Assembly: GCA_947449255.1 (NCBI GenBank) | Contig: CANFQX010000001.1 | Location: 186,001-250,000, forward strand | From: Pseudobdellovibrionaceae bacterium | GTDB taxonomy: Bacteria > Bdellovibrionota > Bdellovibrionia > Bdellovibrionales > Bdellovibrionaceae | DNA length: 64,000 nt | Direction of reading: 5' to 3' | Part shown: positions 2,615 to 64,000 of the stretch, piece after piece | Layout of the letters: each line of letters begins with the position of its first letter | Numbering within the stretch: the first letter of the stretch is position 1 | Program-made: the position numbers and the translations under genes | The notes under the pieces: model-generated | Told to the model about the DNA's origin: nothing | Databases searched by the model: none | Seen by the model: only the letters and a program-made list of their open reading frames with translations

Positions 2615-3715
2615 TTGAACTTTTTCAACTTTGACTTCAAAAAATTAGTGCTCATCGGGGTTGTCTTAACTTTACCCCTTTTATCGATAAACATGCAGCA
2701 AAGCCCCCAGGATTCACATTGGCTAGTGAAGCCCTTCAGTCTTTTGGGTAGCACTGTGTCCGAAATATTCTATAAATTTAGCCACGGAATTAAAGGCACG
2801 ACGGCCCTCTATGTGGATCTCATCAATATCAAAAAACAGAGCGAAGACCTCCACAGCTTCAACAACGAATTGCGATCGCGCCTTGAAAAAATGAACGAGC
2901 TTAATCTTGAAAACAACCGACTTCGTGAGTTGTTAAACTTCAAGCAGCAAACAAAAATGAACCTGACCGCGGCCCAGGTTATTGGACGCGATCTCGTGCT
3001 TGATCATAATTCTTTGACAATAAACAAAGGAACTCGTGATGGCCTAAAATCTGGCCAGGCCGTGATCACCATCAATGGGGTTCTGGGCTACATATTTAAA
3101 CCAGAACCATTCACCGCGCACATCATGCTTGTCACCGATCGCTACGCTGTTGTTGACGGCATAGTTCAAAGAACTAGAGCTCATGGCATTGTCGAAGGCA
3201 AAAGCCAGAGCAGCTGCGCACTGAAGTATGTTGAAAGAACTGAAGACGTCAAAGCAGGTGACCTTGTTGTTACAGGTGGCCTAGACAATATTTTCCCGAA
3301 GGGTTTCCCCGTCGCCATCGTTCAAAGTGTCGAGCGAAAAACATTCAGTGTCTCTTTAAAAGTGGATTTGCGACCCGTCGTTGACCCCCACAGTGTTGAA
3401 GAAGTTTTTGTTGTTGTTGATGCCTCAAAGGAAGACCTTATTGAGATGTTCCTTCCTCAAAGCAAAGAAAAAAAGACTGATCAAGTTTTGCATGAAGGCA
3501 CTCTTACAGAAAGTGCAGTCAGCATGACCCCAGAAGTAGCTGCTTCACCCGCGGCCGTCTTAGCACCCAGCTTATCTAAACCAGAAAAGCACCTTGAAAA
3601 ATCACCAACGAAGGTCTCTGAGAATATATCAGAAAAAAGTTCAGGGAAAGCTTCCACCAAGCCCCGAGCTGAAAACCCCTCCGGCAGCAAAAATAAAGAG
3701 GAGTCCCAACTGTGA
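2615..3715 (+). CDS. mreC: Rod shape-determining protein MreC
   Basis: Elongasome scaffold of 366 residues. It is an inner-membrane protein with one N-terminal membrane segment (about residues 10-28), a coiled coil (about 70-105, rich in Leu/Asn/Glu) and a periplasmic beta domain (about 110-280), ending in a low-complexity Ser/Lys/Glu tail. It links MreB filaments to PBP2 and RodA. The start is TTG at 2615 with AGGTAGGTG just upstream; no nearby ATG fits the hydrophobic N-terminus. It is first in an operon mreC-mreD-mrdA-rodA. The stop overlaps the mreD GTG by four bases. mreB, often immediately upstream, is not here. Confidence 0.93.
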   Translation: MNFFNFDFKKLVLIGVVLTLPLLSINMQQSPQDSHWLVKPFSLLGSTVSEIFYKFSHGIKGTTALYVDLINIKKQSEDLHSFNNELRSRLEKMNELNLENNRLRELLNFKQQTKMNLTAAQVIGRDLVLDHNSLTINKGTRDGLKSGQAVITINGVLGYIFKPEPFTAHIMLVTDRYAVVDGIVQRTRAHGIVEGKSQSSCALKYVERTEDVKAGDLVVTGGLDNIFPKGFPVAIVQSVERKTFSVSLKVDLRPVVDPHSVEEVFVVVDASKEDLIEMFLPQSKEKKTDQVLHEGTLTESAVSMTPEVAASPAAVLAPSLSKPEKHLEKSPTKVSENISEKSSGKASTKPRAENPSGSKNKEESQL

Positions 3716-4245
3716 AGTTACGATGGAAATTCCTTCTCAACTTTCTCATCTTGATTCTTGCCCTCTTAATACTTGTGGGCCTTCAAACGACGTTTTGGTT
3801 TCAAATATTTGGGAACATCTCAGCCCCGATGTTATGGCTCAATCTTGTTGTCTATATTGTTCTTTACCAAAAACCCGCTCCGGCAATTTTAACGATCTAT
3901 AGTATGGGATTTATTCTAACCTCTTTCACCAGTATGCCTCTTAAATTAATGTGGATCACACTCTTGGTTTTATTCATGATCATTTACGGCCTAAAAAGTC
4001 GCATTTTTTGGTCTGGCTCGGGTTATTACGTTATCATGTGCGGTGTCTCTGCCGTAACTTTTCATTTGGCTTATTTTTTAATATCTTTAGCCTTAGAAAA
4101 AACACCAGCAAGCTATGAGGTTGCAGATCGATTGGTGCAAATCATTTTAACGCCTCTCTTTGCGCTGCCAATGTATCGGATGATTTCAAGTTTAGATATC
4201 CTCACACATGATGAATTGAACGACTCAGGAGGGCTAAACCTATGA
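3712..4245 (+). CDS. mreD: Rod shape-determining protein MreD
   Basis: A 177-residue polytopic inner-membrane protein with about five hydrophobic segments, of MreD size. Sequence identity in this family is low, so the call leans on position between mreC and mrdA. It starts at a GTG that overlaps the mreC stop (GTGA) and is preceded by AAAGAGGAG. Its own stop overlaps the mrdA start (ATGA). MreD belongs to the elongasome and stabilises MreC/PBP2 in the membrane. Confidence 0.85.
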   Translation: MKLRWKFLLNFLILILALLILVGLQTTFWFQIFGNISAPMLWLNLVVYIVLYQKPAPAILTIYSMGFILTSFTSMPLKLMWITLLVLFMIIYGLKSRIFWSGSGYYVIMCGVSAVTFHLAYFLISLALEKTPASYEVADRLVQIILTPLFALPMYRMISSLDILTHDELNDSGGLNL

Positions 4246-6233
4246 GCACCTACGTCAGTAATCCTGATGAAGCCAAGGAATATCAAAACCGCTACAGAGT
4301 TTTCTATATAGTCATTGCTATAACTTTCACTATATTTTCAATGCGGTTATGGTTTCTGCAAATCATATCAGGCAATGAGCTGCGCGAATTCAGCGAGAAG
4401 AATCGTATCAAGCAAAATAAGATTCCTGCGCCCCGTGGATTAATGCTCGACCGCGATGGAAAAGTCTTAGTTGAAAATTTACCAGGCTTTGAAGCCATAC
4501 TCAGTCCCCAGTACATCGAGGATCTTGATCAAATGGCCAAAACTGTGGGTTCTGTTCTAGACATCAATCCAGATAAAATTATTCAAAAGGTCCAAAAAAG
4601 CCGCAAGCAAAACGGCCCCTTCACACAGATACGGCTCAAAGAAAACCTCAGTCGTGAGGAGGTCTTTCGTTTAAAGCGAATGCGGCTTGATACTCCAGGA
4701 CTTGAAATTCGTGAGTCCATTGTTCGCTATTATCCGTTGCACGAAAACGGCGCTCAGCTTTTCGGATACGTCAGTGAAATCTCAAAAAGACAGATTCCAG
4801 TCTTGAATGAACTTTACAAAGGGTCCTTGAAATTTGACCAAGGCGATATCATTGGTAAAAGTGGGCTCGAAGAAACTTTGGAGCGAGACATTCGTGGCTC
4901 CGACGGCATCAGTTTTATTCAAGTCGACGCCCACGGTCGCGAAGCTGTCACACAAACGCCAAATATCTATGGCGAGCAAATCAAAGACCAAACAGCCATT
5001 CATGGAAACAATGCGATACTCACCATTGACCGTGACATTCAAGAAGCAGCCCACACAGCCTTCCTTAAAAGTGGCACAGATGCTCGGGGACATATAGGCG
5101 CTATTTTTGTGATGAAGACCAATGGTGAAGTGTTGGCTTGGGTCAGCACACCTTCCTTTGATCCTAATGAGTTCTCGACAGGCATCTCTCCACAGACATG
5201 GTCAAAACTCATCAATGATCCATTTAAGCCTTTGCGTAATAAAATCATCCAAGATCACAATGCACCGGGCTCCACTTTTAAACCCCTTGTTGCCGTTGCA
5301 GCACTAGGCGAAAAGGTGATCACACCGACGACCATAGTCAGTGCTCCTGGAGTCTTTTTCTTTGGCCGACGCCCCTACCATGACAGCTTAAAACAAGGAC
5401 ATGGAAACATCACAATTTATCAAGCCATCGAAGAATCCTCTAATGTCTTTTTCTACAAAATGGGGATCGCTCTGGGCGTTGATAAAATGTATGATTATAT
5501 TCACAACATGGGGATTGGCCAAAAAACGGGCATTGAACTTTCTCGCGAAGTTTCCGGAACAATGCCAAACTCTGCTTGGAAAAAAGCCAATATCGGCGAG
5601 GAGTGGCAAGGTGGTGAAAACCTCAGCACCGCCATCGGACAGGGTTTTGTGACTGTGACACCGATTTCAATGGCTGTAGCTTACAATTCCATTGCTACAG
5701 AGGGAAAGGTTGTGAAGCCTTTTGTTATTCGCAAAGTTTTAGATCAAGATGGAAAAGTTTTGCGTGAAAACTTCCCGCAAGTGGTTCGAGATCTTCAGCA
5801 GACTCAGCCTAACGGAGTTAAAATTTTGCCTGAGACATTTAAAGTGGTCAAAGAAGGCATGAGACTTGTGGCCAATGGCACTCACGGAACGGCTCGATAT
5901 TGGAAGGTTCCTGGAGTCGAATTTGCCGGAAAAACAGGAACAGCTCAAGTGATGGGTTTCTCTGCCGATCAAATTTACACGAGCTGCACTTTGAGGCCTA
6001 TGCACATGCGCCATCACGGGTGGTTTGTATCCTACGCTCCAGCCAATAATCCTGAAATCGTCATCTCTATTTTGGCCGAGCATTCCTGCCATGGAAACAC
6101 CGGAGCGGCTCCTATTGCGCGTGATATTTATCAAAAATATTTTGAAAAATACCACCCTGAAATCATTGCGAATGCTTTAAAAAATAAAGGCTTAAAAAAA
6201 TCTGAGTCCGCTGCAACGAGCGAGGGAGAATAA
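4242..6233 (+). CDS. mrdA: Penicillin-binding protein 2 (peptidoglycan D,D-transpeptidase)
   Basis: A 663-residue class B PBP that cross-links peptidoglycan during lateral wall growth, partner of RodA. One N-terminal membrane segment (about residues 20-42) is followed by the PBP dimerisation domain and a transpeptidase domain. The catalytic motifs are complete: SxxK at Ser344 (APGSTFK), SxN at 399-401 (SSN) and KTG at 564-566. The start is ATGA overlapping the mreD stop, with AGGAGGG upstream. It ends overlapping the rodA ATG by one base. Confidence 0.95.
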   Translation: MSTYVSNPDEAKEYQNRYRVFYIVIAITFTIFSMRLWFLQIISGNELREFSEKNRIKQNKIPAPRGLMLDRDGKVLVENLPGFEAILSPQYIEDLDQMAKTVGSVLDINPDKIIQKVQKSRKQNGPFTQIRLKENLSREEVFRLKRMRLDTPGLEIRESIVRYYPLHENGAQLFGYVSEISKRQIPVLNELYKGSLKFDQGDIIGKSGLEETLERDIRGSDGISFIQVDAHGREAVTQTPNIYGEQIKDQTAIHGNNAILTIDRDIQEAAHTAFLKSGTDARGHIGAIFVMKTNGEVLAWVSTPSFDPNEFSTGISPQTWSKLINDPFKPLRNKIIQDHNAPGSTFKPLVAVAALGEKVITPTTIVSAPGVFFFGRRPYHDSLKQGHGNITIYQAIEESSNVFFYKMGIALGVDKMYDYIHNMGIGQKTGIELSREVSGTMPNSAWKKANIGEEWQGGENLSTAIGQGFVTVTPISMAVAYNSIATEGKVVKPFVIRKVLDQDGKVLRENFPQVVRDLQQTQPNGVKILPETFKVVKEGMRLVANGTHGTARYWKVPGVEFAGKTGTAQVMGFSADQIYTSCTLRPMHMRHHGWFVSYAPANNPEIVISILAEHSCHGNTGAAPIARDIYQKYFEKYHPEIIANALKNKGLKKSESAATSEGE

Positions 6234-7909: not shown

Positions 7910-8887
7910 TTATTTCTTTACTAGCGCCACCGCAAACTCACGGCGCAATTCATCAAGTTCTTTTTGCTTTTCGGTATCCCAATCTTCAGAAAGTTCTTTT
8001 TGACGCCTTCTGATTTCGACCAAATTCATGGTGCTTGTCGGATCCATCGTCACGTCTTGGACAAACTCAGCATATTTTTGCATTTTAACAGAGATTTGAT
8101 CTTGAGCTTTTTTTAGTTCATTGCGGGCAGATTCCTGCGCAAGAGATAACCCTGGATCAACCAAAGGCGGCGTTGATTGTGAAAGAGGTTCAATTTGATC
8201 ACTTTGAGGCTGGCCTCCCCCAATGAGTTCCTTTTCAACAGCAGCTAAATCGAGTGAAGTTTGTGGGCTTGGATATTTTCCGGTAACAAAAAAAAATTCT
8301 TTTGCTTTTTGAGAAAGAGGACTGGTGCTTCCCGCAAAATGACCTACTTTTTTAGAGACCGCCCGCTCTGGTATTGCCGGATGATTGAATCGTCCCAGGA
8401 GGTCCCTTTCATTGTGACCCAAAAGATTTGCTAAGACCTGCACGATTCTGACATTGTCCACTGTTGAATCAAAAATGAGATCGACTCTAATCTTGACTAA
8501 ATCTTGCGGAATGGGCTTAAAATTTTCTGGAAACAAGAGAATACTCTTGCCCTGCCACCAGGTGAGCTCTTTGAGACGCTTTCCTACTGACAGCGGACTA
8601 ACACGCCCACCTTCACCAGAGCAAATAACTGCATCAGGATAAAATGCCAACATTTGATCCGATAACATATTTTCACTGGAAAGTGCGATAACGTCAAATC
8701 CCACTTGCTTGAGTACACTCTCTATATTCATAAGCTCTTGATATTTTTCATAGAGGAGTAAGATTTTGTTCATGGATTTATTGTCAATGAAGGACAGTTT
8801 TTGGTCAATAGGCATCGACTGGACGAAGGGCGCGATGACTCTTTGGAATTGATGATTTATAGTCAAATTGAACTCAGATAAAATCAT
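7910..8887 (-). CDS. Uncharacterised protein with receiver-like domain lacking phosphoacceptor
   Basis: A 325-residue cytosolic protein, not recognised by name. From residue 39 it reads like the first half of a response-regulator receiver domain (KILLLYEKYQ, then YPDAVICSG), but the position of the phosphorylated Asp is Cys/Ser, so it would be a pseudo-receiver. A low-complexity middle follows (about 190-250), then a charged C-terminal helical region with many Glu, Lys and Arg. Start choice is open: the longest frame begins at 8887, while the ATG at 8773 begins directly at the receiver-like part. Neither has a clear Shine-Dalgarno. It is divergent from the LptF/LptG gene. Confidence 0.6.
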   Translation of the reverse strand: MILSEFNLTINHQFQRVIAPFVQSMPIDQKLSFIDNKSMNKILLLYEKYQELMNIESVLKQVGFDVIALSSENMLSDQMLAFYPDAVICSGEGGRVSPLSVGKRLKELTWWQGKSILLFPENFKPIPQDLVKIRVDLIFDSTVDNVRIVQVLANLLGHNERDLLGRFNHPAIPERAVSKKVGHFAGSTSPLSQKAKEFFFVTGKYPSPQTSLDLAAVEKELIGGGQPQSDQIEPLSQSTPPLVDPGLSLAQESARNELKKAQDQISVKMQKYAEFVQDVTMDPTSTMNLVEIRRRQKELSEDWDTEKQKELDELRREFAVALVKK

Positions 8888-8911
8888 CGTTTGTCGATCG
8901 CAAGGGGAATC

Positions 8912-10018
8912 ATGCTCGGTATTTTTAGCGGCAAAAAAGCAATAAAATATATATTCTTTGAGATGCTCCCCAGCTTCATCCTTGGCATTTTGGTTTTTAT
9001 GTCAATCATTCTCATGTTCCAAGTCCTAAGATTGACGGAGTTCGCTTTGGTACATGGGGTTTCACTTAAAATTATTGGTGAAATTCTTGGGTACATCATT
9101 ATCTCACTCTTGCCCGCATTGCTCCCCATGGCCTTGCTTTTTTCCGTCGTATTGACCTACGGCAGACTCAGTCAAGACTCAGAGATTGTGGCCATGAAAG
9201 CTAGTGGCATAAGCATGGCCACTTTGCTTTCTCCAGCTCTTATTCTGGCACTTCTTGTCGGGGTTATTTCAGCGCAGACCTCATTCATTATTGGGCCCTG
9301 GGGAAATCGCCAATTTGAAGTTCTCTTTACTCGCCTTGCGGACGCGAAAGTTAGCGCCGTCATCAAGGAAGGCACCTTTGCTGAGGGCTTTTTTGATATG
9401 GTTGTCTATGCCAACGAAGTGGATTCAAAGTCTGGAGTATTAAAAAAAGTATTTATTTATGACGAAAAAAACAGCGATGTCCCTCTGACTATCATTGCAA
9501 AAAGTGGCTCCATCATTTCCGACCCTGATCGCCCTGGGCAGCGGGTGTTGCTGCGCTTGAATAACGGCGAAATCCACCGCCAAGAGCTGACTCACACCAA
9601 AATCAGCTTTGACTCCTACGATGTTCATTTTTCTGAGCCTGATGTCATTTCAGAAAGAGCAAAATCACCTCAATCACTTACACTTCATGAAATTCGCGAG
9701 CGCTTGAAAGAAAAAATCAAGGATCCCGAGGAGCGTTATGTTCTTCAGACTGAATTTCACAAGCGTTGGGCCATTTCTATTCTCTGCGTGGTCTTTGCAG
9801 CTATCGGTGTTGGACTTGGAACGACAACCAACCGCCGAGCCGCTAAGGCTGGTGGAATGGTGCTTTGTATTGGTATCATCGTTCTGTATTGGATTCTTTA
9901 TATCGCGGCCGAAGGAGCTGCACGCAGTGGATCTATTCCAGCATCGCTGGCTATTTGGACACCTAATTTAATTTTTGGAATATTTGGATTTGAATCTTTG
10001 AGAAGGAATTGGAACTAA
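8912..10018 (+). CDS. LptF/LptG-family lipopolysaccharide export permease
   Basis: A 368-residue YjgP/YjgQ-family permease. Three membrane segments at each end flank a periplasmic jellyroll-like region (about residues 105-265). The family pattern is clear in the N-terminal LRLTEFALVHGVSL region and the C-terminal GTTTNRRAAKAGGMVL. In the LptB2FG complex it pulls lipopolysaccharide out of the inner membrane. I chose the ATG at 8912, preceded by AAGGGG; a TTG at 8891 would add seven residues. Only one permease gene is here; its usual partner is not adjacent. LptF and LptG are hard to tell apart by eye, so no symbol is given. Confidence 0.9.
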   Translation: MLGIFSGKKAIKYIFFEMLPSFILGILVFMSIILMFQVLRLTEFALVHGVSLKIIGEILGYIIISLLPALLPMALLFSVVLTYGRLSQDSEIVAMKASGISMATLLSPALILALLVGVISAQTSFIIGPWGNRQFEVLFTRLADAKVSAVIKEGTFAEGFFDMVVYANEVDSKSGVLKKVFIYDEKNSDVPLTIIAKSGSIISDPDRPGQRVLLRLNNGEIHRQELTHTKISFDSYDVHFSEPDVISERAKSPQSLTLHEIRERLKEKIKDPEERYVLQTEFHKRWAISILCVVFAAIGVGLGTTTNRRAAKAGGMVLCIGIIVLYWILYIAAEGAARSGSIPASLAIWTPNLIFGIFGFESLRRNWN

Positions 10019-10028
10019 ATCAAATAGA

Positions 10029-10077
10029 GCGATGTAGCAGCATCCTTACTACTACGGTCATCCCTGACCACATCGCC
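10029..10077 (-). other. Structured intergenic element, possible three-way RNA junction
   Basis: In the gap between the convergent permease and dprA genes, an outer stem (GCGAT 10029-10033 with ATCGC 10072-10076, extendable by two pairs) encloses two hairpins. One is 10034-10055 (7 pairs around an 8-base loop), the other 10056-10069 (GGTCA/TGACC around four bases). One pair in the first hairpin is a mismatch on the plus strand but G-U on the minus strand, so minus-strand RNA is favoured. There is no clear T-run, so it is not a standard terminator. Confidence 0.4.
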
Positions 10078-10218
10078 CCTCCCTGAATTCAGATGTTAAG
10101 AGCATTTACCCGCCACAGGCAAAAGAAATTTTCAGAACATTTCACTTTTTTTATTAATTAAATTATTGATTGAGCTCATATTCTTAATCTCTCTAGATAT
10201 AGTGCTAAAAATAATATT

Positions 10219-11184
10219 TCACACAATATACGGAGAAAAATCACCTTTACTAAAAACTTCACCCCTAAAAAAAGTGGATAAATCTTGGGCATCCCGAATC
10301 ATTGTCGCACCCTCGCTCAACAAATCCAGACAACCTGCAAAGTGAGGATCATAAGGATGCCCTGGCACAACTCCCACCGGACGCCCGAGTTGAGCGGCCT
10401 GCTGTGCTGTAATCAAAGTGCCACTTTTTCTTTTTCCTTCAACAAGAAGAGTCACAAGCCCCAAGGCTGCAATGAGACGATTGCGATGATGAAATAAATA
10501 TTTGTGCATTTTTTGTGAATAATCATATTCACTCAAGATGCAACCACCACTGGCTAGCACTGGATTTAGCCACTCTTGCAGAGAGGAGGGGTAGATTTGC
10601 CCCAAGCCCGACGGAAGAACAATAATTGTTGGGCAAGCACTCCTCAGCGCAATAGCGTGTGCTTTTTGATCTATCCCGCGTGCGCCACCGCTCACGATCA
10701 ATGGTTTTTCTGTCCTACAGAACTCTGACAGGTCTTTTTCCAACCACTTTAAAGAATCCTGACTGGGCTCACGACTGCCCACAACAGCAAGACTTTTTTC
10801 CATCAGCCACACGGGAGAGCCCTGAAAACTTAAGGTCAGTGGTGGATCTCCCATGAGATAGCAATGCCGAGGAAATAGATCTGTCCCATAAACAGCAAAT
10901 TGAACGCCCTGCTGCGCGAGCAAAATATTTTCTGCACATATTTTTTTAAATTCAATTTGATGTTGATCCAACTCATGAAAAAACACCCCAGAATTCATTC
11001 CAGGTAAAAATCCCTGCAAAAGTGGAAGCCTTTCTCGACAGGCTTCTCGAAGATTATCTACATTGAGGGCGCCGCTTTTTCCAAGTTGAAAATAAATGAG
11101 ATGAATTTCATCGCGGTGATTTTTATATAGCTGCAGTTTTTTGATGATTTGCGAAAAAGAAAATAGCTCTATTAATTCTATCAT
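10219..11184 (-). CDS. dprA: DNA-processing protein DprA
   Basis: A DprA/Smf Rossmann-fold protein of 321 residues that loads RecA on incoming single-stranded DNA during natural transformation. Typical motifs are AVVGSREPS, IVSGGARGIDQKAH, VLPSGLGQIYP and KSGTLITAQQAAQLGR. The frame opens at a GTG at 11214, but the ATG at 11184 (MIELIEL) has AGGTC upstream and fits better. It is last in a minus-strand run of three genes (YbgF-like, LysM, dprA). With the split comEC gene at 13640 it points to a DNA-uptake capacity. Confidence 0.92.
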   Translation of the reverse strand: MIELIELFSFSQIIKKLQLYKNHRDEIHLIYFQLGKSGALNVDNLREACRERLPLLQGFLPGMNSGVFFHELDQHQIEFKKICAENILLAQQGVQFAVYGTDLFPRHCYLMGDPPLTLSFQGSPVWLMEKSLAVVGSREPSQDSLKWLEKDLSEFCRTEKPLIVSGGARGIDQKAHAIALRSACPTIIVLPSGLGQIYPSSLQEWLNPVLASGGCILSEYDYSQKMHKYLFHHRNRLIAALGLVTLLVEGKRKSGTLITAQQAAQLGRPVGVVPGHPYDPHFAGCLDLLSEGATMIRDAQDLSTFFRGEVFSKGDFSPYIV

Positions 11185-33901: not shown

Positions 33902-35410
33902 ATGAAAAAGCATATCGTCCGCGTCTATCCATCTAAAGAAAAATTAGAACGTCAAGATCAACTGGCTTGGAAGATGGCGCAAGTTGCCTCTGACAATACA
34001 CCCATCAAAGCTGACGTGGCTGACATGATTATCAATCGTATCATCGACAATGCCTCTGTCGCTATTGCTGCGGCCAATCGCCGCCCCGTGGCCTCTGCGC
34101 GAGCGATGGCTATCGCTCATCCTCGCCAAGGCGGCGCGACTGTTTTTGGTATGCCTATCGATCAAAAATTTGACTGTGAATGGGCGGCTTGGGCCAATGG
34201 CACGGCTGTGCGCGAATTGGATTTCCATGACACTTTCCTAGCTGCAGATTATTCACATCCAGGTGACAACATTCCACCCATATTAGCGGTGGCACAACAG
34301 ATGAATAAATCTGGACAAGACCTTCTAAAAGGCCTTGTCACTGGGTATGAATTGCATGTGGACCTTGTGAAAGCCATCTGTTTGCATGAATACAAAAAAG
34401 ATCATATTGCCCATCTCTGCCCGGCACAAGCTGCTGGCATCGGCACTTTATTGGGCCTCTCCACAGAGACTATTTATCAATCCATTCAGCAGGCCGTTCA
34501 TGTTTCTTTCACAACTCGGCAATCTCGTAAGGGTGAAATCTCTTCGTGGAAAGCTTATGCTCCAGCTCACTCTGGAAAATTGGCCATTGAGGCTGTAGAC
34601 CGTGTGATGCGTGGAGAAGGTGCACCTTCGCCAATCTATGAAGGGGAAGATTCGGTCATCGCCTATATGCTTTCTGGAAAAAATGGAAAATACGAAGTTC
34701 CACTTCCAGAGATGGGCGAAGAAAAACGTGCCATCCTTGAAACTTACACGAAAGAGCATTCTGCTGAATATCAATCTCAAGCTCTGATTGATCTAGCCCG
34801 CAAAATGAAATCAAAAATCACAAACTTTGACGATATTGCAAACATCGTGATTCACACCTCCCACCACACTCACTATGTGATTGGCACCGGAGCTAACGAT
34901 CCGCAAAAAATGGATCCAACAGCTTCCCGTGAAACTCTAGATCATTCCATCATGTATATTTTTGCAGTCGCACTTCAAGATGGAACTTGGCACCATGTGA
35001 ACTCCTACGCTCCGGAACGCGCGCAGCGCGCTGACACTGTGGCTTTATGGCACAAAATCTCTACGGTTGAAGAAGCACAATGGACAGCTTGGTACCACGA
35101 ACAAGATCCAAATAAAAAACGTTTCGGTGGCCGCGTTGAAATCACCTTTAAAAATGGTGAAAAACTAGTGGATGAATTGGGTGTTGCTGATGCTCATCCC
35201 GCAGGAGCTCGTCCCTTTAAACGTGCTGACTACATCAGAAAGTTTGACACTCTGACCGAGGGAATTATTTCTAAAGATGAAAGAAATCGCTTTATTTCCT
35301 TGTCTGAAAGTCTTTTGGATTTAAGCGCTGAACAGCTGCAACAATTGAATGTGCAAATTCCAATCGATAAATTGATCAACAACAAGCGCGATACAAAAGG
35401 GATTTTCTAA
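33902..35410 (+). CDS. prpD: 2-methylcitrate dehydratase
   Basis: MmgE/PrpD-family enzyme of 502 residues that dehydrates 2-methylcitrate in the propionate-degrading methylcitrate cycle. The N-terminal [20 protein letters not shown] and [19 protein letters not shown], the [19 protein letters not shown] segment and the C-terminal domain ([19 protein letters not shown]) match family features. A good Shine-Dalgarno (GAAAGGA) precedes the ATG. It is first in prpD-prpB-prpC. Confidence 0.95.
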
Positions 35411-35414
35411 TTTT

Positions 35415-36314
35415 ATGTTGTTTCCAGAATTAACCCCCGCACAAAAGCGCGCTCATTTTAGAGCCACTTTAAAAAGTGGCAAGTTGATGCAATTCCCTGG
35501 AGCTTGGTCGCCATTGGTTTCTATGGCCATTGAAAAAGCAGGCTTTGATGGAGTTTACATTTCAGGATCCGTGCTCTCCAATGAATTGGGATATCCCGAC
35601 ATTGGTTTAACTTCACTCACTGAAGTGGCGCTTCGCGGTCGACAAATTGCGCGCACAACAACTTTGCCAACAATCATTGATATTGACACTGGTTTTGGCG
35701 AGCCGATGAGTGCCACTCGCACCGTTCAAGAGATGATTGAAATGGGTCTGGCGGGCTGTCACATTGAAGACCAAGTCAACCCCAAACGTTGCGGTCATCT
35801 TGATGGAAAATCTCTAGTCAGCCATGAAGAAGCTGCGCGCAAAGTCGCGGCAGCCGCTCGCGGTAAAAAACTTGATGATAATTTTTTATTGATTGCACGC
35901 ACGGATGCTCGCGCCTCTGAAGGACTTGCTGCAGCCATCGACCGCGCTAAGGCCTATATAGATGCTGGTGCTGACTGTATTTTTACAGAAGCTTTAGAAA
36001 ATGAAAAGGAATTTGAAACTTTCCGAAAGGCTGTTTCAGTTCCTCTGCTTGCGAATATGACGGAGTTTGGAAAGGGTCGGCTGTTCACTTATGAAGAGCT
36101 CTCAAATCTGGGCTACAACATTGTGATTTATCCGGTGACCACATTCCGTCTCGCCATGGGAGCCACTGTGGATGGACTGGCTGAAATCAAAGCCCGCGGG
36201 ACACAGGAAGGCTTGCTGGGTAAAATGCAGACCCGAAAAGATCTGTATGCCCTCACAAGATATGACGAGTACAACAGTTTTGATCAAAATATTTTTAATT
36301 TTACTTTAAAGTAA
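35415..36314 (+). CDS. prpB: Methylisocitrate lyase
   Basis: Cleaves 2-methylisocitrate to pyruvate and succinate. A 299-residue member of the isocitrate-lyase/PEP-mutase superfamily. The catalytic loop KRCGHLDGK (about residues 118-126) contains the general-acid Cys; the metal site is in DIDTGFGEP and CHIEDQVNPKRC. It begins five bases after prpD. Confidence 0.95.
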   Translation: MLFPELTPAQKRAHFRATLKSGKLMQFPGAWSPLVSMAIEKAGFDGVYISGSVLSNELGYPDIGLTSLTEVALRGRQIARTTTLPTIIDIDTGFGEPMSATRTVQEMIEMGLAGCHIEDQVNPKRCGHLDGKSLVSHEEAARKVAAAARGKKLDDNFLLIARTDARASEGLAAAIDRAKAYIDAGADCIFTEALENEKEFETFRKAVSVPLLANMTEFGKGRLFTYEELSNLGYNIVIYPVTTFRLAMGATVDGLAEIKARGTQEGLLGKMQTRKDLYALTRYDEYNSFDQNIFNFTLK

Positions 36315-36366
36315 AAAAAATCAAGGCGCGCTCCGAGCAAAGAATGCGCCCGTAAAAGGAAATAAA

Positions 36367-37533
36367 ATGGCTGAATATATCAATCCAGACTATGTCCCTG
36401 AACCAGAGAAGATGAATGTCAAAAAAGGTCTTGATGGCGTGGTCATGGACACCTCCTCAGTTTCTAAAGTGAACCCGCACACCAATTCTTTGATCTACCG
36501 TGGCTACCCGGTTCAAGACTTGGCTGAGAATTGCTCTTTTGAAGAAGTTGCATTCTTGATGTACAATGGTGAATTGCCAAACACAGCGCAGTTGGCTGAT
36601 TTCACAAAAAAAGAAAAAAGCTACCGCGATATTTCTGCGACTTTGCTCAATGTAATTAAGTCCCTACCACAAAAGTGTCACCCTATGGATTCCATCCGCA
36701 CCGCGGTTTCCTTCCTAGGTGCTGAGGATGCTCGCATTTGGGATTCAAGCCCTGCAACGAACCTTGATAAAGCCATGATGTTGCTAGCAAAGATCCCCAC
36801 AATGGTGGCAGCTGATTATCGCTTTAAAAAAGGCCTTGACTTTATTGCTCCAAAATCAGAGCTGACAATAGCTGAAAACTTTTTCCATATGTGTTTCGGC
36901 AAAGTGCCACAAAAAGAAGTCGTTAAAGCATTTGATGTGTCTTTGATCCTTTATGCAGAACACAGCTTCAATGCATCAACGTTCACAGCTCGAGTTGTGA
37001 CCTCTACCCAATCTGACATTTACTCGGCAACAACTGCAGGCATCGGTGCCTTAAAAGGCCCTTTGCACGGTGGAGCCAATGAAATGGTCATGCACATGAT
37101 GAAAGAAATTGCTGATCCTGCAAAAGCTGAACAGTGGATGATTGATGCTTTGGCACAAAAGAAAAAAGTCATGGGCTTTGGCCACCGCGTTTATCGTTCT
37201 GGTGATTCTCGTGTGCCGACAATGAAAAAATATGCACAAATCATGGCTGATGTCACCGGCGAGCAAAAATGGATGCAAATGTATGCATCGCTAGAAAAAG
37301 TGATGGTTGAAAAGAAAAAAATCTATCCAAACTTAGATTTCCCAGCCGGTCCAGCCTACTACATGATGGGCTTTGAAATTGATTTCTTTACACCAATCTT
37401 TGTCATGGCGCGCACCACGGGTTGGTCAGCTCACATCATGGAACAAACTGCAGACAACCGCATTATTCGTCCCTTGAGCGAATACGTCGGCAAAGAACAA
37501 CGCCAGGTTGTCCCTTTGTCTGAAAGAAATTAA
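36367..37533 (+). CDS. prpC: 2-methylcitrate synthase / citrate synthase family
   Basis: Condenses propionyl-CoA with oxaloacetate. At 388 residues it has the short bacterial type II citrate synthase length. Family motifs: ILYAEHSFNASTFTARV, GPLHGGANEMVM (catalytic His) and MGFGHRVYRSGDSRVP (His, Arg). The order D-B-C in one operon supports the methylcitrate role over a TCA-cycle role. It is preceded by a 52-base gap with a good Shine-Dalgarno (AAAGGA) and followed by a terminator. Confidence 0.92.
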   Translation: MAEYINPDYVPEPEKMNVKKGLDGVVMDTSSVSKVNPHTNSLIYRGYPVQDLAENCSFEEVAFLMYNGELPNTAQLADFTKKEKSYRDISATLLNVIKSLPQKCHPMDSIRTAVSFLGAEDARIWDSSPATNLDKAMMLLAKIPTMVAADYRFKKGLDFIAPKSELTIAENFFHMCFGKVPQKEVVKAFDVSLILYAEHSFNASTFTARVVTSTQSDIYSATTAGIGALKGPLHGGANEMVMHMMKEIADPAKAEQWMIDALAQKKKVMGFGHRVYRSGDSRVPTMKKYAQIMADVTGEQKWMQMYASLEKVMVEKKKIYPNLDFPAGPAYYMMGFEIDFFTPIFVMARTTGWSAHIMEQTADNRIIRPLSEYVGKEQRQVVPLSERN

Positions 37534-57331: not shown

Positions 57332-57609
57332 TTCAAACCTTCATTTCCAACTTCTATTAAAAGCTAATAAGCACGGTGCCAAATTCATTGACACCTCTCC
57401 TTTATGCCTCAGCCCTGGAATGAATGCAATTTTTTTGAGTTCCAATATTCAGCTCGTTTATACAAACGTCTTCCTTTGAGATTTTTATTCCCGGGTTGAT
57501 ACAACCGCAGAGCGAGCACAACCCTATTTCATTGAAATCAATAGAGATTATAATCTATAATGAAGTGCGAGGCCCTTCATCTTTCTTATTTTCACCTGCG
57601 AGGTCGATC

Positions 57610-58545
57610 TTGATTTCACCCAAGGAAATTTTAATCTTTTTGTTTGTTCTATTATCCTCAGTCACACTAATTTTAAAAATTGTTCAACGAAAAAAAAAGG
57701 ACCTGGAACTGTTGATAAAGATTTTAAATATAGTCAGAGGTTGGTGGATGATTTTCGGCATACTGACTGTGGCTTCTTTGATCGGACCCTGGGGCATTTG
57801 GGGATTGTTTTTAATCTTAAGTCTTTTTGGTGTTTGGGAGTATCTGGGAATCTCAAAGCTTTGCGACACAAACAAAAAAACCATCCGCATCTTTTATAGC
57901 CTAGGCACCTTGGCTTTCTATTTAATGCTGTCCTTTTCATCAACCATTTTGGCCTATATGTTTGCCCTTGTTTTTCAATTGTTAATTTCTGGAATTTTAT
58001 TACTGCAGAATAAGAAGCAGGATATGATTGCCCTGACTATCGCAGGTGGAATCGGAATCTTCACTTTGATTGTGGCCTTGGGCAGTGTCCCTCAGGTGGC
58101 TTTCTTAGGCGAAGGCATCTGGCACACTGAGGCCGCTGGAGTTTCAGCACTGCTCTTTTTGATTACAATAACCAGCTTGAATGATGTCTTTCAGTTTATC
58201 GGCGGCAAATTATTCGGTAAAAATAAGTTGGTCCCTCACTTAAGCCCAAATAAAACTGAGGCTGGCTTTATCGCCGGCATTTTTGGGACGACATTGCTGG
58301 GTGGATTTGTCTTTCATCAATTTTTAGGAACCGAGATTCTAAGTGCACTGGTGCTGGGATTGAGTATCGGTGTCAGTGGAATATTTGGCGATTTATTTTT
58401 ATCAGCAGTCAAACGATCGAATCAGGTCAAAGATTTTAGTGACCTCATTCCCGGCCACGGTGGAATTTTAGATCGCATTGACAGTCTGATTTTCACGGCT
58501 CCAGTTTTTTTATTTACTTTATACGCTCTCAACTTGGTGAAATAA
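57610..58545 (+). CDS. CdsA-like phosphatidate cytidylyltransferase (first copy)
   Basis: About 311 residues with eight or so membrane segments. The CdsA signature is intact: SAVKRSNQVKDFSDLIPGHGG then ILDRIDSL near the end, and DVFQFIGGKLFGKN with LSPNKTEAGFIAG before it. CdsA makes CDP-diacylglycerol from phosphatidate and CTP. I chose the TTG at 57610 (GAGGTCGATC upstream) because the hydrophobic part begins there; the frame is open from a TTG at 57496. First of five closely spaced genes. Confidence 0.85.
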   Translation: MISPKEILIFLFVLLSSVTLILKIVQRKKKDLELLIKILNIVRGWWMIFGILTVASLIGPWGIWGLFLILSLFGVWEYLGISKLCDTNKKTIRIFYSLGTLAFYLMLSFSSTILAYMFALVFQLLISGILLLQNKKQDMIALTIAGGIGIFTLIVALGSVPQVAFLGEGIWHTEAAGVSALLFLITITSLNDVFQFIGGKLFGKNKLVPHLSPNKTEAGFIAGIFGTTLLGGFVFHQFLGTEILSALVLGLSIGVSGIFGDLFLSAVKRSNQVKDFSDLIPGHGGILDRIDSLIFTAPVFLFTLYALNLVK

Positions 58546-58551
58546 ATTTAT

Positions 58552-59193
58552 ATGCTCTATAAAATAAAAGGCCCTTTTCAGAAAATCTCTGAAAAATTTC
58601 TGACCTCTGGCATGACCGCCAATCAAGCCTCCGGCTGGGGGGTGATTTTTATAATTTTGATTTGCTGTGTGTTTTACATTCCGACGGCTTTGCCTAAATA
58701 TTCATGGCTGTCTGGGCTTGCGCCCTTGTTTATTTTTCTGCGCTTGATCATGAATGCGCTGGATGGTTTGCTGGCTCGCAGACTCAATACAGCTTCTCCT
58801 GCGGGAGAAGTGTTCAATGAACTTTCCGATGTGATTGGCGATTCCCTCTGCTATGGATTTTTGGGCTTTGCCTTTCCTGAATTATTTAAGTCTTTGATTT
58901 TTGTTATTGTGGGCATTTGGTTTTGCGAGTTTGTGGCTGTCTTGGGAAAGTCATTGCCCCATGGAGTCCGCAGGCAAGATTCGTTGGCGGGAGGAAAACC
59001 TGAAAGGGCCGTCTATTTAGGATTGATAGCTATTCTGATGGCCACCACTGCGGATCAACTGGAAAGAAAAGTTGAAATCATCCTTATTCTTGTTGGAATT
59101 TTGGTGTTTATGACTGGAGTTTATAGAGTCATAAAAGCACTGAAAGGATCCAAAGGTGCACCCTATGAATCAAAGACTCTTTATGGACGTTAA
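58552..59193 (+). CDS. CDP-alcohol phosphatidyltransferase-like protein with altered motif
   Basis: A 213-residue polytopic protein with the CDP-alcohol phosphotransferase region NALDGLLARRLNTASPAGEV (residues 68-87) then FNELSD. The family motif D1xxD2GxxAR(x8)GxxxD3xxxD4 reads Asn68, Asp71, Asn89, Asp93: D1 and D3 are Asn. These residues bind the catalytic metals, so activity is reduced, altered or lost. It starts six bases after CdsA-like copy 1, and sits between the two CdsA-like genes. Confidence 0.85.
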   Translation: MLYKIKGPFQKISEKFLTSGMTANQASGWGVIFIILICCVFYIPTALPKYSWLSGLAPLFIFLRLIMNALDGLLARRLNTASPAGEVFNELSDVIGDSLCYGFLGFAFPELFKSLIFVIVGIWFCEFVAVLGKSLPHGVRRQDSLAGGKPERAVYLGLIAILMATTADQLERKVEIILILVGILVFMTGVYRVIKALKGSKGAPYESKTLYGR

Positions 59194-59196
59194 CCT

Positions 59197-60231
59197 ATGA
59201 ACAAAATTTTACTGCCATTGCTGATCATTCCACTTTTTATCAAATTGCTTTTCACTGAAGCTCATGGGGCGGATCATAATTTATCTGTTTTGTTTTCAGT
59301 CAGCATTTTAGTGTTAAGTTTTTTCACGGTACTGATTTTAAAAATGCTTAAAGCAGGAAAACATTCTGCGACAGAACTGATGGCAAGGACTCTGACCTTT
59401 TGGTGGATGCTGGGTCTTTTTTTGGTTGCTGTGACCACGCCCACGGTCATTTCTTATGTCTTGATTGGCCTCTTTTCAGGCCTAGCTTTTTTGGAGTATT
59501 TTGAATTTCAAAAAAACGAGAAAAAGGTTTTACTGCCTCAAGGAATTATTTATTGCTCCTTGCTGTTTATCCCTATCAATCTAGGTCTGCATTATTTTGG
59601 ACATTCAAGATTAAGTCTTGGGCTTTTTTTTATTTGTGTGACTTTAATCATTCCTTCGGTCCTGGTTTTAATGAATGAAGTTGAATCCGTCATGTTGAGA
59701 TTTGGCTATTGGGCTTCGGCCGTCGTGTTTTTTATTTTTGCGCTGGGATACGGAGCGGCTATTGCTGGCCAAAGCCTTTTGCTGCTGCTCTTTTGTTTCT
59801 TTTTCACGGAGCTGCGTGATCTTATTTCCTATTGGCTGGGTAAATTTTTGGCCAAGGCTTACCTAAAACATCAAGATTCTTTGGTGTTAAAATTCTTAAA
59901 TCAAAAAATTGCCAACAAAGTCAGTCCAAATAAATCCTGGGGTGTGGGCTTAATAACATTGGTGATATTGCTTGCCCTAGCTTTTTTGATGCGTGATTTT
60001 CTGCCTGAAATTGCTGGTAAGAAAATGTCAGAGGCCTTGATTTTTGTTTGGATCTTTTCGATTGGCTTTTTTGGCTTATTAGGTGATTTGGTTTTCTCTA
60101 TGTTCAAAAGGCAATTTGGCCTGAAAGATTCCGGATCATTACTGCCTGGAGGAACGGGAATCATAGATCGTATCGACAGCTTAATTTTAACAATACCGGC
60201 AACTTATTTTATTTTCTTTTACTTGAATTAA
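59197..60231 (+). CDS. CdsA-like cytidylyltransferase (second copy, divergent motif)
   Basis: A 344-residue polytopic protein. The C-terminal CdsA signature is recognisable but altered: FKRQFGLKDSGSLLPGG then TGIIDRIDSLIL, where the usual PGHGG has become PGGTG. Upstream ELRDLISYWLGKFLAKA and NKVSPNKSWGVGL correspond to the substrate loop. It begins 3 bases after the preceding stop. Copy 1 shows the standard His; this one may have a different substrate or be a partner subunit. Confidence 0.8.
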   Translation: MNKILLPLLIIPLFIKLLFTEAHGADHNLSVLFSVSILVLSFFTVLILKMLKAGKHSATELMARTLTFWWMLGLFLVAVTTPTVISYVLIGLFSGLAFLEYFEFQKNEKKVLLPQGIIYCSLLFIPINLGLHYFGHSRLSLGLFFICVTLIIPSVLVLMNEVESVMLRFGYWASAVVFFIFALGYGAAIAGQSLLLLLFCFFFTELRDLISYWLGKFLAKAYLKHQDSLVLKFLNQKIANKVSPNKSWGVGLITLVILLALAFLMRDFLPEIAGKKMSEALIFVWIFSIGFFGLLGDLVFSMFKRQFGLKDSGSLLPGGTGIIDRIDSLILTIPATYFIFFYLN

Positions 60232-60243
60232 TCAGGAGTAAAA

Positions 60244-60879
60244 ATGGATTTAGGACTGTACTTATTAAAAATGCCATTTAGAAAAATCATCGGCTTTCTT
60301 GTGCCACTTTTTAAAAACACCAATCCAAATTGGATCAGCCTTGCCCTCCTTCCTGTGGGAATTTTAATGGCCTGGACCTACTGGATGGCATTGAAACAAG
60401 GCCACGAAGGGTATCTATTGATCGCAATCATTCTGGGCTTTTTCAGGATGGTCGTCGCCACCTTAGACGGACTAGTGGCTGTGACCTATGAAAAGTCCAC
60501 GGCAGTTGGAGACATACTCAATAGAGTCACCCCCGAGCTGTGCGATATGATTCTCTATCCAGTCCTTATTCTGAGCCTAGGTCCATTAAACAATCTAGGT
60601 TTGGGCGTATTGATGGTTTCTTGGGCTGTCACTTTTTTTGGACTGCTTGGAGCCCCCAGCTCTTGCCCTGTGCAAAGCGTCGGACCCTGTGGGCAAACAG
60701 ATCGTTTGGCGGCCCTGATGCTATTTTCTTTTCTTCAGTATTTTAGTTTATCCTTTAACTGGGGATTGCACTTTTTTAGGTATTTTTTCTTATGGCTTGT
60801 CATCGGCGGCAGCCTCACTGTCGTGCTGCGCTTTTATCGCACATTAAAAGCAGCCCATGAAAAGGATCAAAGTGTCTAA
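60244..60879 (+). CDS. CDP-alcohol phosphatidyltransferase-like protein with almost lost motif
   Basis: A 211-residue polytopic protein that aligns with the first transferase around MVVATLDGLVAVTYEKSTAV (69-88) then GDILNRVTPELCD. The motif positions read Ala72, Asp75, Asn93, Pro97, and the conserved AR is Ala-Val. Only D2 and the Gly residues remain, so ordinary phosphatidyl transfer is unlikely. It may have become a non-catalytic partner or act on another substrate. A clear Shine-Dalgarno (CAGGAG) precedes the ATG. The stop lies beyond the start of the fusion gene. Confidence 0.75.
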   Translation: MDLGLYLLKMPFRKIIGFLVPLFKNTNPNWISLALLPVGILMAWTYWMALKQGHEGYLLIAIILGFFRMVVATLDGLVAVTYEKSTAVGDILNRVTPELCDMILYPVLILSLGPLNNLGLGVLMVSWAVTFFGLLGAPSSCPVQSVGPCGQTDRLAALMLFSFLQYFSLSFNWGLHFFRYFFLWLVIGGSLTVVLRFYRTLKAAHEKDQSV

Positions 60880-62929
60880 AACGGCGTTTTCAAAAGATCG
60901 AAAATCCATAACTGCGTTTTCAAACTATCGAAAGTCATTGTCCGTCCTGGTTGAGGGACTCTTTCTTAACTATGCAGCCACGGCTCCGCTATCTAGGCGT
61001 AGCATCGAAAAGATTAAAGCAGAAGCCGAGGATATGAAAACTCCCTTGGGACAAAGATTTTATTTGGCATTGAATAAGCTTGAAAATGCTCGTCGATCTT
61101 TTGCAGAGTTGATTCATGCTAAAGGCAACGAAATCGCTTTCACCCAAAACACCTCTATGGCCATCAGCACCATCGCCGGGGGACTTTCCTTTAAGCCTGG
61201 CGATCGCATCCTTGTGCCCAACAATGAATTCCCTTCAAACTATTATCCTTGGATGAATTTAAAATCACAAGGGGTTGTGTGTGAGAAAATCAATCCACAA
61301 AAAAATGTTTCCATTGTTGAAACAATAAAAAATATGGACCTTAAAAATGTGAAGTTGATCAGTTTAAGTGCTGTCAGCTATCACACGGGTCGACTTTATG
61401 AGCTGCAGGAGTTTGTAGATTTTTGCAAAAACAATAACATCCTCACCTGCTTAGATTCAATTCAAGCCATCGGTGCTGTAAAATTTGATGTGCAGAAACT
61501 GCCCGTGGACTTTGTCTGCAGCGGAGCTCAAAAGTGGCTGATGGGACCCGTGGGCTGTGGAATTATTTATTGCCGTGAAGAACATTTGGAAAGATTAAAT
61601 GTTCCCTACACAGGCTGGACCAGCGTGATGTATCCCGAAAATTTGGATTTGGGAGACTTGGAGTTTTCGAAGGAAATGACGCGCTTTGAACCGGGTCTGC
61701 CAAATTATCTAGCTTTAATGGGAATGGCAGAATCGCTATTAGAACTAAAAAATATTGGCTGGGAAAATATTTTTAATGCCGTCCAAGAAAATACACAATA
61801 TCTGCAGAGCAACTTAAAAAACCTTGGCTTTTCACTTTTGACTGGGGAAAATGACCAGTCCGCTGGGATCACATCTTTCTTTGTTCCAGAAGGCATTGAT
61901 CACCGCTCGGTGGAAGCCTTATATTTATCGCACAAAATTAAAATTACAGCTAGAAATGATTATGTTCGAGTTTCACCCCATTTTTTTAATAAAAGCTCAG
62001 AACTGGATCAGTTTTTAAATGTGACGGAAAAAATATTTAAAAAAACGAAGCTAAAAAATATCAGTCCGAATATAGAATCGATAAGACCTTCCATCAAGGA
62101 TTCAAAGAAGTTTTCACAGCAAACACTTTCCCCAAAAATTCTCCTGACCGGTGCCACGGGTCACCTCGGCTCGGAGATCGCAAAGCAGCTCTTGCCGCTG
62201 GGCTTTTCATTGCATCTTGTGGATTTTCAACATGATAAACTAGCCGCGCTAAAAAAATCTTTAGAAGAAATCATTGCTCAATCTAAAATTGACAACATCA
62301 CTCTTCAAATTGATGTTGTGGACTACCTCAATAAAAAAATGTTCCATGACTGGCTCTGCACTTTAAAACAGGACAATTCGAATTCCTTTGCTGGACTCAT
62401 TCACTGTGCTGGTGTGGTCGAGACCTCCTTGTTTGAAGATCTCTCCACTAAAAAAATCGAGGAGCTGTTCGAGGTCAATGTGGAAGGTCCTCTGCTTTTA
62501 ACTCATGCTTTTTTAACGGACCTCAAAAGTCCTAGCGCCTTGGGGGTTTTAAATGTGGTGTCCTCCACAGGACGCTGCGGTTCGCCTCTGCTTGCTGTTT
62601 ATTCAGCCACCCATGGAGCCATGTGGAGCCTTGGAGAGTCCTTGGCTCGGGAATATCAAGATCAAAACTTAACCATCACAACTTATGTGGCGCCAGCCAT
62701 GCATTCTCCTATGCAAAAACGCATGGGACGAGTCAGTCTGAGGTTTTTTAGAATGAGTGGCACTTTTGACTATGAAGTCGTAGAGCATGTCGCGGCCGAA
62801 GCCCTTGCCGTTTTTTTAGGGAAGAAGAATTTTTACTTGTCAAAAATGAATCGTTTAAAAATTATAATGAATTCGATCTATCCCCATTTTATCGATAAAA
62901 AAATATCCAAAGTGTGGCGGAAGGATTAA
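60857..62929 (+). CDS. Class V aminotransferase fused to a short-chain dehydrogenase
   Basis: A 690-residue two-domain protein. Residues about 35-395 are a SufS/NifS-like PLP domain: NYAATAPLSRRS, Asp200 in LDSIQAIGA, PLP-Lys226 in CSGAQKWLMGPVG and RFEPGLPNYLALMG. Residues about 427-690 are an SDR: TGATGHLGSE (431-440), HCAGV, NVVSSTGRCG and Y582SATH586, where the YxxxK lysine is His. A linker of about 30 residues joins them. It starts within the previous gene (23-base overlap). The N-terminal 35 residues include a duplicated segment. The likely substrate is a lipid-linked amine or ketone; not known. Confidence 0.8.
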   Translation: MKRIKVSKTAFSKDRKSITAFSNYRKSLSVLVEGLFLNYAATAPLSRRSIEKIKAEAEDMKTPLGQRFYLALNKLENARRSFAELIHAKGNEIAFTQNTSMAISTIAGGLSFKPGDRILVPNNEFPSNYYPWMNLKSQGVVCEKINPQKNVSIVETIKNMDLKNVKLISLSAVSYHTGRLYELQEFVDFCKNNNILTCLDSIQAIGAVKFDVQKLPVDFVCSGAQKWLMGPVGCGIIYCREEHLERLNVPYTGWTSVMYPENLDLGDLEFSKEMTRFEPGLPNYLALMGMAESLLELKNIGWENIFNAVQENTQYLQSNLKNLGFSLLTGENDQSAGITSFFVPEGIDHRSVEALYLSHKIKITARNDYVRVSPHFFNKSSELDQFLNVTEKIFKKTKLKNISPNIESIRPSIKDSKKFSQQTLSPKILLTGATGHLGSEIAKQLLPLGFSLHLVDFQHDKLAALKKSLEEIIAQSKIDNITLQIDVVDYLNKKMFHDWLCTLKQDNSNSFAGLIHCAGVVETSLFEDLSTKKIEELFEVNVEGPLLLTHAFLTDLKSPSALGVLNVVSSTGRCGSPLLAVYSATHGAMWSLGESLAREYQDQNLTITTYVAPAMHSPMQKRMGRVSLRFFRMSGTFDYEVVEHVAAEALAVFLGKKNFYLSKMNRLKIIMNSIYPHFIDKKISKVWRKD
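60884..60943 (+). repeat. 30-base tandem imperfect duplication at the start of the fusion gene
   Basis: Two 30-base units (60884-60913 and 60914-60943) share GCGTTTTCAAA, then ATCGAAA at the same offset. They encode the repeated peptide AFSKDRKS/AFSNYRKS in frame, before the aminotransferase domain. Confidence 0.7.
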
Positions 62930-62963: not shown

Positions 62964-64000
62964 ATGATCATTATCGTGAAAAATATTAAATTGCCCCCTA
63001 AAAAAGCTTCCTTTGTATTGATCATATTTGCTTCAGTGAGCCTTTTCTTTGCAGCTCAAAAAAGCTCGGCTTACCCTGATTTTATTGGCTATGGATATTC
63101 ATCTTGCATCACCTGCCATTATAATGGACTGGGGGGCGGAGCTCTGAATGACTATGGCCGAGCCCTCTTTGCAACGGAAATCACAGCCCGGGATATTTAT
63201 CCAAGCAGCACAGACGATGAAGAAATCGGCGCGCAATCTGGTTTTTTTGGCAAAAGTCCACTCCCGTGGTGGATTCGTCCTGGAATTAAATACCGAGGTC
63301 TTTGGTTCCAAACCAATCCCGGCAGCGAGCTAAGAAAAGAAAAATATGTCAATATGCAAGAAGAGGTGAACTTAAACCTCTTTGCTGACAAAAAGCAAAA
63401 TCTATCGCTTATCTCGACCTTTTCCTATGCCGACAAATACCCTCCTCATGCGGACAACAAAGAATGGAGCTGGTATATCAAGGAAAGTTACTTGCGCTGG
63501 AAGGCCAATAACAATCTGTGGTTTTACTTAGGGCAAATGGACAAGGCCTTTGGCCTTCGCAATATCGACCACACTGCAGCGAACAGATCCATCAATCAAA
63601 GCACAGTGCTCAGTCAATTCGACCAATCTGTAGGAGCGATTGTCCATCTGACTTATTCGAGTTGGGACTTTGCTGGAAATCTTTTTCTGGGCAACGCCTA
63701 TGAACTTGATTCTGAAAAACAAAAGGGCCTAGCTTTCACCGGAGAATATCAACTTGAAGAGAAATTTAAAATGGGGGGCTCAGTCCTTGCCTCTGAAAAC
63801 GATCTGACACAATGGAAACTGGCGTCGGTCACATCACGCCTAGGCCTCACCAAGGGCAGTTCTTTGATTGCGGAATTGGGTCTTAAAGAGGAAAAAAATA
63901 AAACAACATCAACCAGACTGCTGGGCAACTATATTTGGATTGAGTCACTGATTTCTTTACGACGAGGATACAATCTGATTTCATCCATCGAGACCAGCAA
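62964..64000 (+). CDS. Exported protein with a c-type heme motif, 3' end outside window
   Basis: The first 345 codons of a gene that runs off the right edge. A signal segment (about residues 12-36, LIIFASVSLFFAAQKSSA) is followed by YGYSSCITCHYNGLGGGALN, with a CxxCH heme-binding motif (Cys48, Cys51, His52), then a long region of alternating aromatic/polar residues (KYRGLWFQTNPGSEL, WFYLGQMDKAFGLRNID) typical of an outer-membrane beta barrel. It may be a cytochrome-linked porin or a heme-binding outer-membrane protein in electron transfer. I chose the ATG at 62964; the Shine-Dalgarno is weak. Confidence 0.7.
   Translation, partial: MIIIVKNIKLPPKKASFVLIIFASVSLFFAAQKSSAYPDFIGYGYSSCITCHYNGLGGGALNDYGRALFATEITARDIYPSSTDDEEIGAQSGFFGKSPLPWWIRPGIKYRGLWFQTNPGSELRKEKYVNMQEEVNLNLFADKKQNLSLISTFSYADKYPPHADNKEWSWYIKESYLRWKANNNLWFYLGQMDKAFGLRNIDHTAANRSINQSTVLSQFDQSVGAIVHLTYSSWDFAGNLFLGNAYELDSEKQKGLAFTGEYQLEEKFKMGGSVLASENDLTQWKLASVTSRLGLTKGSSLIAELGLKEEKNKTTSTRLLGNYIWIESLISLRRGYNLISSIETS

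Follow-up and report, generated by a model that had tools for sequence, protein, structure and literature searches.

The window, by which we mean the whole 64,000-nucleotide stretch of DNA analysed here, carries at 57610-62929 of its plus strand five adjoining genes that we read as an accessory phospholipid pathway, acquired horizontally and of YnbA/YnbB type, in which a fusion of an aminotransferase and a short-chain dehydrogenase (SDR) would interconvert amine and alcohol in the lipid head group via a keto intermediate (probability roughly 0.55). This reading draws on the enzyme families and their active-site residues, on one four-gene order shared by six genomes of two phyla, on the fact that close relatives of the second transferase (PT2) and the full fusion co-occur there and in no other genomes searched of the two phyla, and on the YnbA/YnbB pairs that E. 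coli, plasmids and relatives carry alongside other tailoring enzymes. The YnbA/YnbB core is of an already known kind; what is new is the variant PT1-CdsA2-PT2-fusion.

Results

A tight cluster of lipid genes

All five open reading frames that a first-pass annotation had placed here were recovered with the same coordinates, and the Pfam matches agreed with the families it had named, that of PT2 lying just under threshold (Table 1). The first four genes are separated by 6, 3 and 12 bases, and PT2 and the fusion then overlap by 23 bases. CdsA1 starts with TTG and has GAGG six bases upstream. Promoter-like sites were equally common in shuffles of the region, and the sigma-70-like site upstream of CdsA1 is therefore weak evidence. 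Within the fusion, the aminotransferase extends over approximately residues 30-395 and the SDR over approximately residues 425-690.

Table 1 Coordinates of the cluster genes and of other features mentioned in the text (G000, window genome; C1 and C3, contigs; L, loci)
Feature	Location	Coordinates	Strand	Remarks
Sigma-70-like site TTGAAA-18-TATAAT	Window	57532..57561	+	Upstream of CdsA1; 11/12 in consensus scan; possible operon promoter
CdsA1, YnbB-like CDP-lipid synthase	Window	57610..58545	+	Pfam PF01148 CTP_transf_1, 177 bits
PT1, YnbA-like CDP-alcohol phosphatidyltransferase	Window	58552..59193	+	Pfam PF01066 CDP-OH_P_transf, 34.4 bits, cut-off 22
CdsA2, diverged CdsA-like protein	Window	59197..60231	+	Pfam PF01148 CTP_transf_1, 105 bits
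PT2, strongly diverged CDP-alcohol transferase-like protein	Window	60244..60879	+	Pfam PF01066, 20.2 bits, just under cut-off 22
Class V aminotransferase-SDR fusion	Window	60857..62929	+	Pfam Aminotran_5 1e-51, adh_short 8e-26
PT1 of L046	L046	7790-8419		Completes four-gene unit there
Cytochrome-like CxxCH protein	Window	62964-63998 and on		No Pfam match
prpD-prpB-prpC-like methylcitrate cycle cluster	Window	33902-37533		
PrpB	Window	35415-36314		
Orphan YnbA-like transferase	L042 (G000 C1, ~83.2-83.9 kb)	9742-10401		
Degenerate CdsA-like protein	L044 (G000 C3)	8699-10509		Beside acyltransferase-like gene
Methyltransferase-like/aminotransferase I/II-like open frame	L111 (G000 C3)	~5-9 kb		~1048 codons
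Two-gene insertion between M1 peptidase and folE	L176 (G212)	3321-5155		Similar spacing in G177

Four of the five genes form a conserved unit

A search of other genomes for the same gene order, which the first-pass annotation had proposed, showed that relatives retain four of the genes as neighbours. PT1-CdsA2-PT2-fusion occurred in identical order in 6/6 genomes found, which belong to two phyla: three of the 24 congeneric genomes searched and three of ~149 Vulcanimicrobiota. The congeneric carriers of the fusion and PT2 are the window genome, G130 and G148, and in the latter two the unit directly follows a TonB-like gene and has no CdsA1. Two Eremiobacterota (now Vulcanimicrobiota) assemblies with the fusion came from a scan of species genomes and the third from a phylum search. 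The species-genome scan did not return the carrier G506, and the distribution is to be read as a lower bound. The full fusion was not seen outside the six cluster genomes among 291 genomes of the own phylum and ~149 Vulcanimicrobiota, nor were close PT2 relatives among up to 369 and ~149, respectively; a PT2 query against plasmids gave no match. With five further genomes, from two phyla, sharing the order of the four genes, the arrangement does not reflect chance.

CdsA1 was restricted to the G000 copy and absent from all five other clusters, and it thus lies outside the conserved unit; the five genes are not conserved as a set. Its absence elsewhere also speaks against the earlier proposal of two pairs arisen by a paired duplication, which we rejected since CdsA1 is closer to YnbB-type proteins than to CdsA2, and PT1 closer to YnbA-type proteins than to PT2. 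The companion claim that the second copies have diverged held, in that CdsA2 and PT2 both carry changed active-site residues. In one Vulcanimicrobiota pair, each of the four core genes had a dN/dS within 0.08-0.15 (for three of the genes, dS was saturated in the other pair). All four are under purifying selection, and these values indicate that the odd active-site residues are not a sign of decay.

Active-site residues of the CdsA-like proteins and transferases

CDS proteins bear the signature KDx5PGHGGx2DRxD (PMC7018664). CdsA1 has it in full (KDFSDLIPGHGGILDRID); its nearest relatives were YnbB-type CdsA proteins of other operons (33-34%), and it matched E. coli YnbB at 31% over 314 aa. CdsA2 departs from the signature (KDSGSLLPGGTGIIDRID): in the alignments of all six copies GHGG is replaced by G[GSA][ST]G, and the signature His is absent. 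CdsA2 matched the TmCdsA structures 4q2e/4q2g with E ~1e-15.

Two further genes of these families were seen in the window genome. One, on contig C1, encodes an orphan YnbA-like transferase, whose G148 orthologue (61% identical) adjoins CdsA-like and EmrE-like genes; neither adjoins the orphan in G000. That CdsA1 is the lost partner of this gene, at 83 kb, is unlikely, as CdsA1 is 33% identical to the G148 CdsA versus 61% for the transferase. The other encodes a degenerate CdsA-like protein with GRGDFLHRVD for GHGG..DRxD.

The CDP-alcohol transferase motif is DxxDGxxAR(x8)GxxxDxxxD; all four Asp residues matter in M. jannaschii PSS (PMC8633023), and D4N nearly abolishes the activity of a PIP synthase (PMC4634129). 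Neither PT1 nor PT2 carries this motif. PT1, conserved in all six clusters, reads NxxDGxxAR...GxxxNxxxD with Asn at D1 and D3, as in E. coli YnbA, which it matched at 35% over 144 aa. In all six copies of PT2 we found AxxDGxxA[VT]...GxxxNxxxPE, in which D1, D3 and D4 are replaced by Ala, Asn and Pro, respectively, together with an invariant Glu98 beside the lost Asp, Asp101 one turn on, and a retained PNxxS that resembles the family's cytidine-binding P(D/N)xx(T/S). PDB profile matches of PT2 to designed Pizza propeller proteins were discarded as short repeat artefacts, and structure predictions from three-row alignments (mean pLDDT 48 for PT2 and 51 for the fusion) were too poor for active-site inspection.

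The aminotransferase-SDR fusion

The N-terminal part is a class V aminotransferase (Aminotran_5, PF00266, 176 bits) in which the PLP residues Lys226, Asp200, Gln203 and Arg371 are invariant. Its best match among solved structures was 5b7s (E 1e-33). A cysteine desulfurase was rejected because, when aligned with 5b7s, the domain lacks the loop with the catalytic Cys that precedes the C-terminal Arg. The C-terminal part matched the short-chain dehydrogenase model adh_short (PF00106) at 91 bits (cut-off 26.6), but its triad is incomplete: Ser570 and Tyr582 are kept and YxxxK has become YxxxH586, both in the five aligned copies and in comparison with 3wtc and 1geg.

One possible interpretation of these replacements is that CdsA2, PT2 and the SDR domain have no catalytic activity and serve as partners in a membrane complex that would bind liponucleotide and control or scaffold PT1 and the aminotransferase. 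Key residues are consistently lost (Ala for D1 and Pro for D4 in PT2, the GHGG change in all six CdsA2 copies, His for Lys in the five aligned SDR domains), which, like the cytidine-site-like PNxxS of PT2, would fit such a complex. However, the invariant Glu98 and Asp101 of PT2 could replace the lost Asp, and Asn at D1 and D3 is already found throughout the YnbA branch, and we consider this interpretation unlikely.

Horizontal transfer between two phyla

Every congener retains the M1 peptidase gene (67-75% identical), with the cytochrome-like gene no more than a few kilobases away in 19/23 of them. At the four loci read, the interval between the two contains folE and a small minus-strand gene, which in G148 encodes a PilZ-domain protein. 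The neighbourhood in G000 is otherwise conserved and has the five-gene cluster in place of the small gene; in G130 and G148, the unit is found at a different genomic site. The window copy of the fusion is 43% identical to those of the congeners versus 56-59% to those of Vulcanimicrobiota, and PT2, which differs least of the set between G000 and its congeners, gave 59-61% versus 62-70%. The tree of the aminotransferase domain (FastTree, with outside homologues included) was ((G130,G148),(window,(three Vulcanimicrobiota))), with a support of 0.995 for the group of the window and Vulcanimicrobiota copies. From this grouping with the other phylum and from the replacement of the small gene in a conserved neighbourhood, we infer that the unit moved horizontally between two distant phyla, in either direction. 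The G+C content of the cluster genes (38-45%) is like that of the window and unlike the 59-60% of the other phylum, and the transfer was therefore not recent.

A further two-gene insertion was seen between the M1 peptidase gene and folE in two congeners, G212 and G177, and the M1 peptidase-folE neighbourhood may be a site of gene gain. Relatives of the CxxCH cytochrome-like protein that follows the cluster were present in 23/24 congeneric genomes, several of which have more than one copy.

Discussion

A proposed pathway and its alternatives

The window genome encodes PgsA-, PssA- and CdsA-like proteins outside this cluster as well. The cluster is therefore accessory and probably yields an extra phospholipid. 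The earlier view of a cluster of lipid genes that probably serves a specialised product is supported. In the scheme that we propose, CdsA1 and possibly CdsA2 would form a CDP-lipid from a lipid phosphate (probably phosphatidic acid); in the genomes without CdsA1, the CDP-lipid could be supplied by the housekeeping CdsA or by CdsA2. The lipid phosphate would then be passed on to a hydroxyl group on a small acceptor by PT1 and perhaps by PT2, with its changed active site. The fusion would make or mature the head group by amine/ketone/alcohol interconversion, with the keto intermediate handed between its domains; it might turn an amino acid into a hydroxy acid that serves as the acceptor, or an alcohol into an amine on the head group. 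All these steps would presumably act on one lipid. What counts against the pathway is that CdsA2 lacks the signature His, PT2 the fourth Asp and the SDR the catalytic Lys, and three of the six domains may accordingly not carry out the textbook reaction.

We put forward only tentatively, as somewhat improbable, the stronger proposal that a new class of phospholipid is made by a CDP-lipid synthase that lacks the signature His, a transferase that lacks the canonical Asp centre and an SDR whose catalytic Lys has become His, and that this pathway is portable and has passed between Bdellovibrionota-like bacteria and Vulcanimicrobiota.

The presence of two synthases and two transferases, the second of each with differing active-site residues, could also mean that CdsA1/PT1 make one phospholipid and CdsA2/PT2 another, and that the fusion tailors only one of them. 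We regard such parallel products as improbable, for in the five other clusters, which have no CdsA1, PT1 still shares one operon with CdsA2 and PT2.

In E. coli, the CdsA paralogue YnbB is non-essential and cannot substitute for CdsA in bulk phospholipid synthesis, and its overproduction raises MPIase (PMC6362211). A glycolipid of the MPIase type, with sugar phosphate on diacylglycerol, would be a product in keeping with that effect; however, the effect in E. coli is auxiliary and the unit contains no glycosyltransferase or sugar-nucleotide gene in any of the six genomes, and we think such a product very improbable. Inositol lipids are disfavoured because the gene for inositol-1-phosphate synthase is missing (no PF01658 match in the genome).

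The first-pass annotation had guessed at an amino-lipid, which is possible but unproven, and had hinted at sphingo- or phosphonolipids. Such lipids are known from a predatory relative, and Bdellovibrio is named together with sphingophosphonolipids in several papers. Such a pathway is scarcely to be expected here, as key genes are missing: the only member of the PEP mutase family (PF13714) in the genome is PrpB, within a prpDBC-like cluster, the fusion reached 59 bits with the 2-aminoethylphosphonate aminotransferase model, whose cut-off is 361, and no alpha-oxoamine synthase of the serine palmitoyltransferase type was recognised among nine PF00155 matches in the genome (judged by reading sequences, 5/9 read), where the strong Aminotran_1_2 members resemble AspC, HisC and a methyltransferase-aminotransferase fusion. 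Separately, the long open frame with methyltransferase-like and aminotransferase I/II-like parts on contig C3 (Table 1) gave the impression of a layout like that of plant methionine S-methyltransferase.

Comparison with known systems

Our literature search found no paper describing the five-gene arrangement, and the earlier statement that it is not known stands to that extent; it does not stand for the YnbA/YnbB core. YnbA/YnbB-type operons are widespread, and no identified product of them was found in the literature. Own orthologues aside, the transferases and CdsA-like proteins of the cluster are nearest to this kind, and PT1 and CdsA2, which adjoin in all six clusters, have significant similarity to YnbA and YnbB. 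E. coli ynbABCD likewise has homologous adjoining genes for a transferase (YnbA) and a CdsA paralogue (YnbB); PT1 has the Asn-containing motif of YnbA, and CdsA1 the complete CDS signature that is also seen in YnbB. Whereas ynbABCD adds the hydrolase/methyltransferase YnbC and the phosphatase YnbD, partners absent from all six clusters, the cluster has instead a second, diverged transferase and the aminotransferase-SDR fusion. YnbA/YnbB-type pairs on plasmids are accompanied by an acyltransferase and a hydrolase/methyltransferase as in E. coli. Operons of the own phylum (L056, L058 and L060, with variants L057 and L059) combine the same two core families just as tightly, but with an acyltransferase and a small EmrE-like protein, so named from reading the sequence, and with no PLP or SDR enzyme. 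The variant described here links YnbA/YnbB-type operons to a PLP/redox fusion and gives a chemical handle on the head group.

The aminotransferase domain resembles SufS-like class V PLP enzymes, to which its best structure match belongs, but differs from them in the missing desulfurase Cys loop, in the attached SDR and in the Gln that precedes the PLP Lys. PT1 belongs, by Pfam and by weak profile matches to solved members, to the same family as PssA, PgsA and PIP synthase. Compared with these enzymes, Asp residues of the catalytic motif are changed to Asn, Ala or Pro in PT1 and PT2, and the cluster offers a natural setting in which to test if CDP-alcohol transferases and CdsA remain functional without residues thought to be essential.
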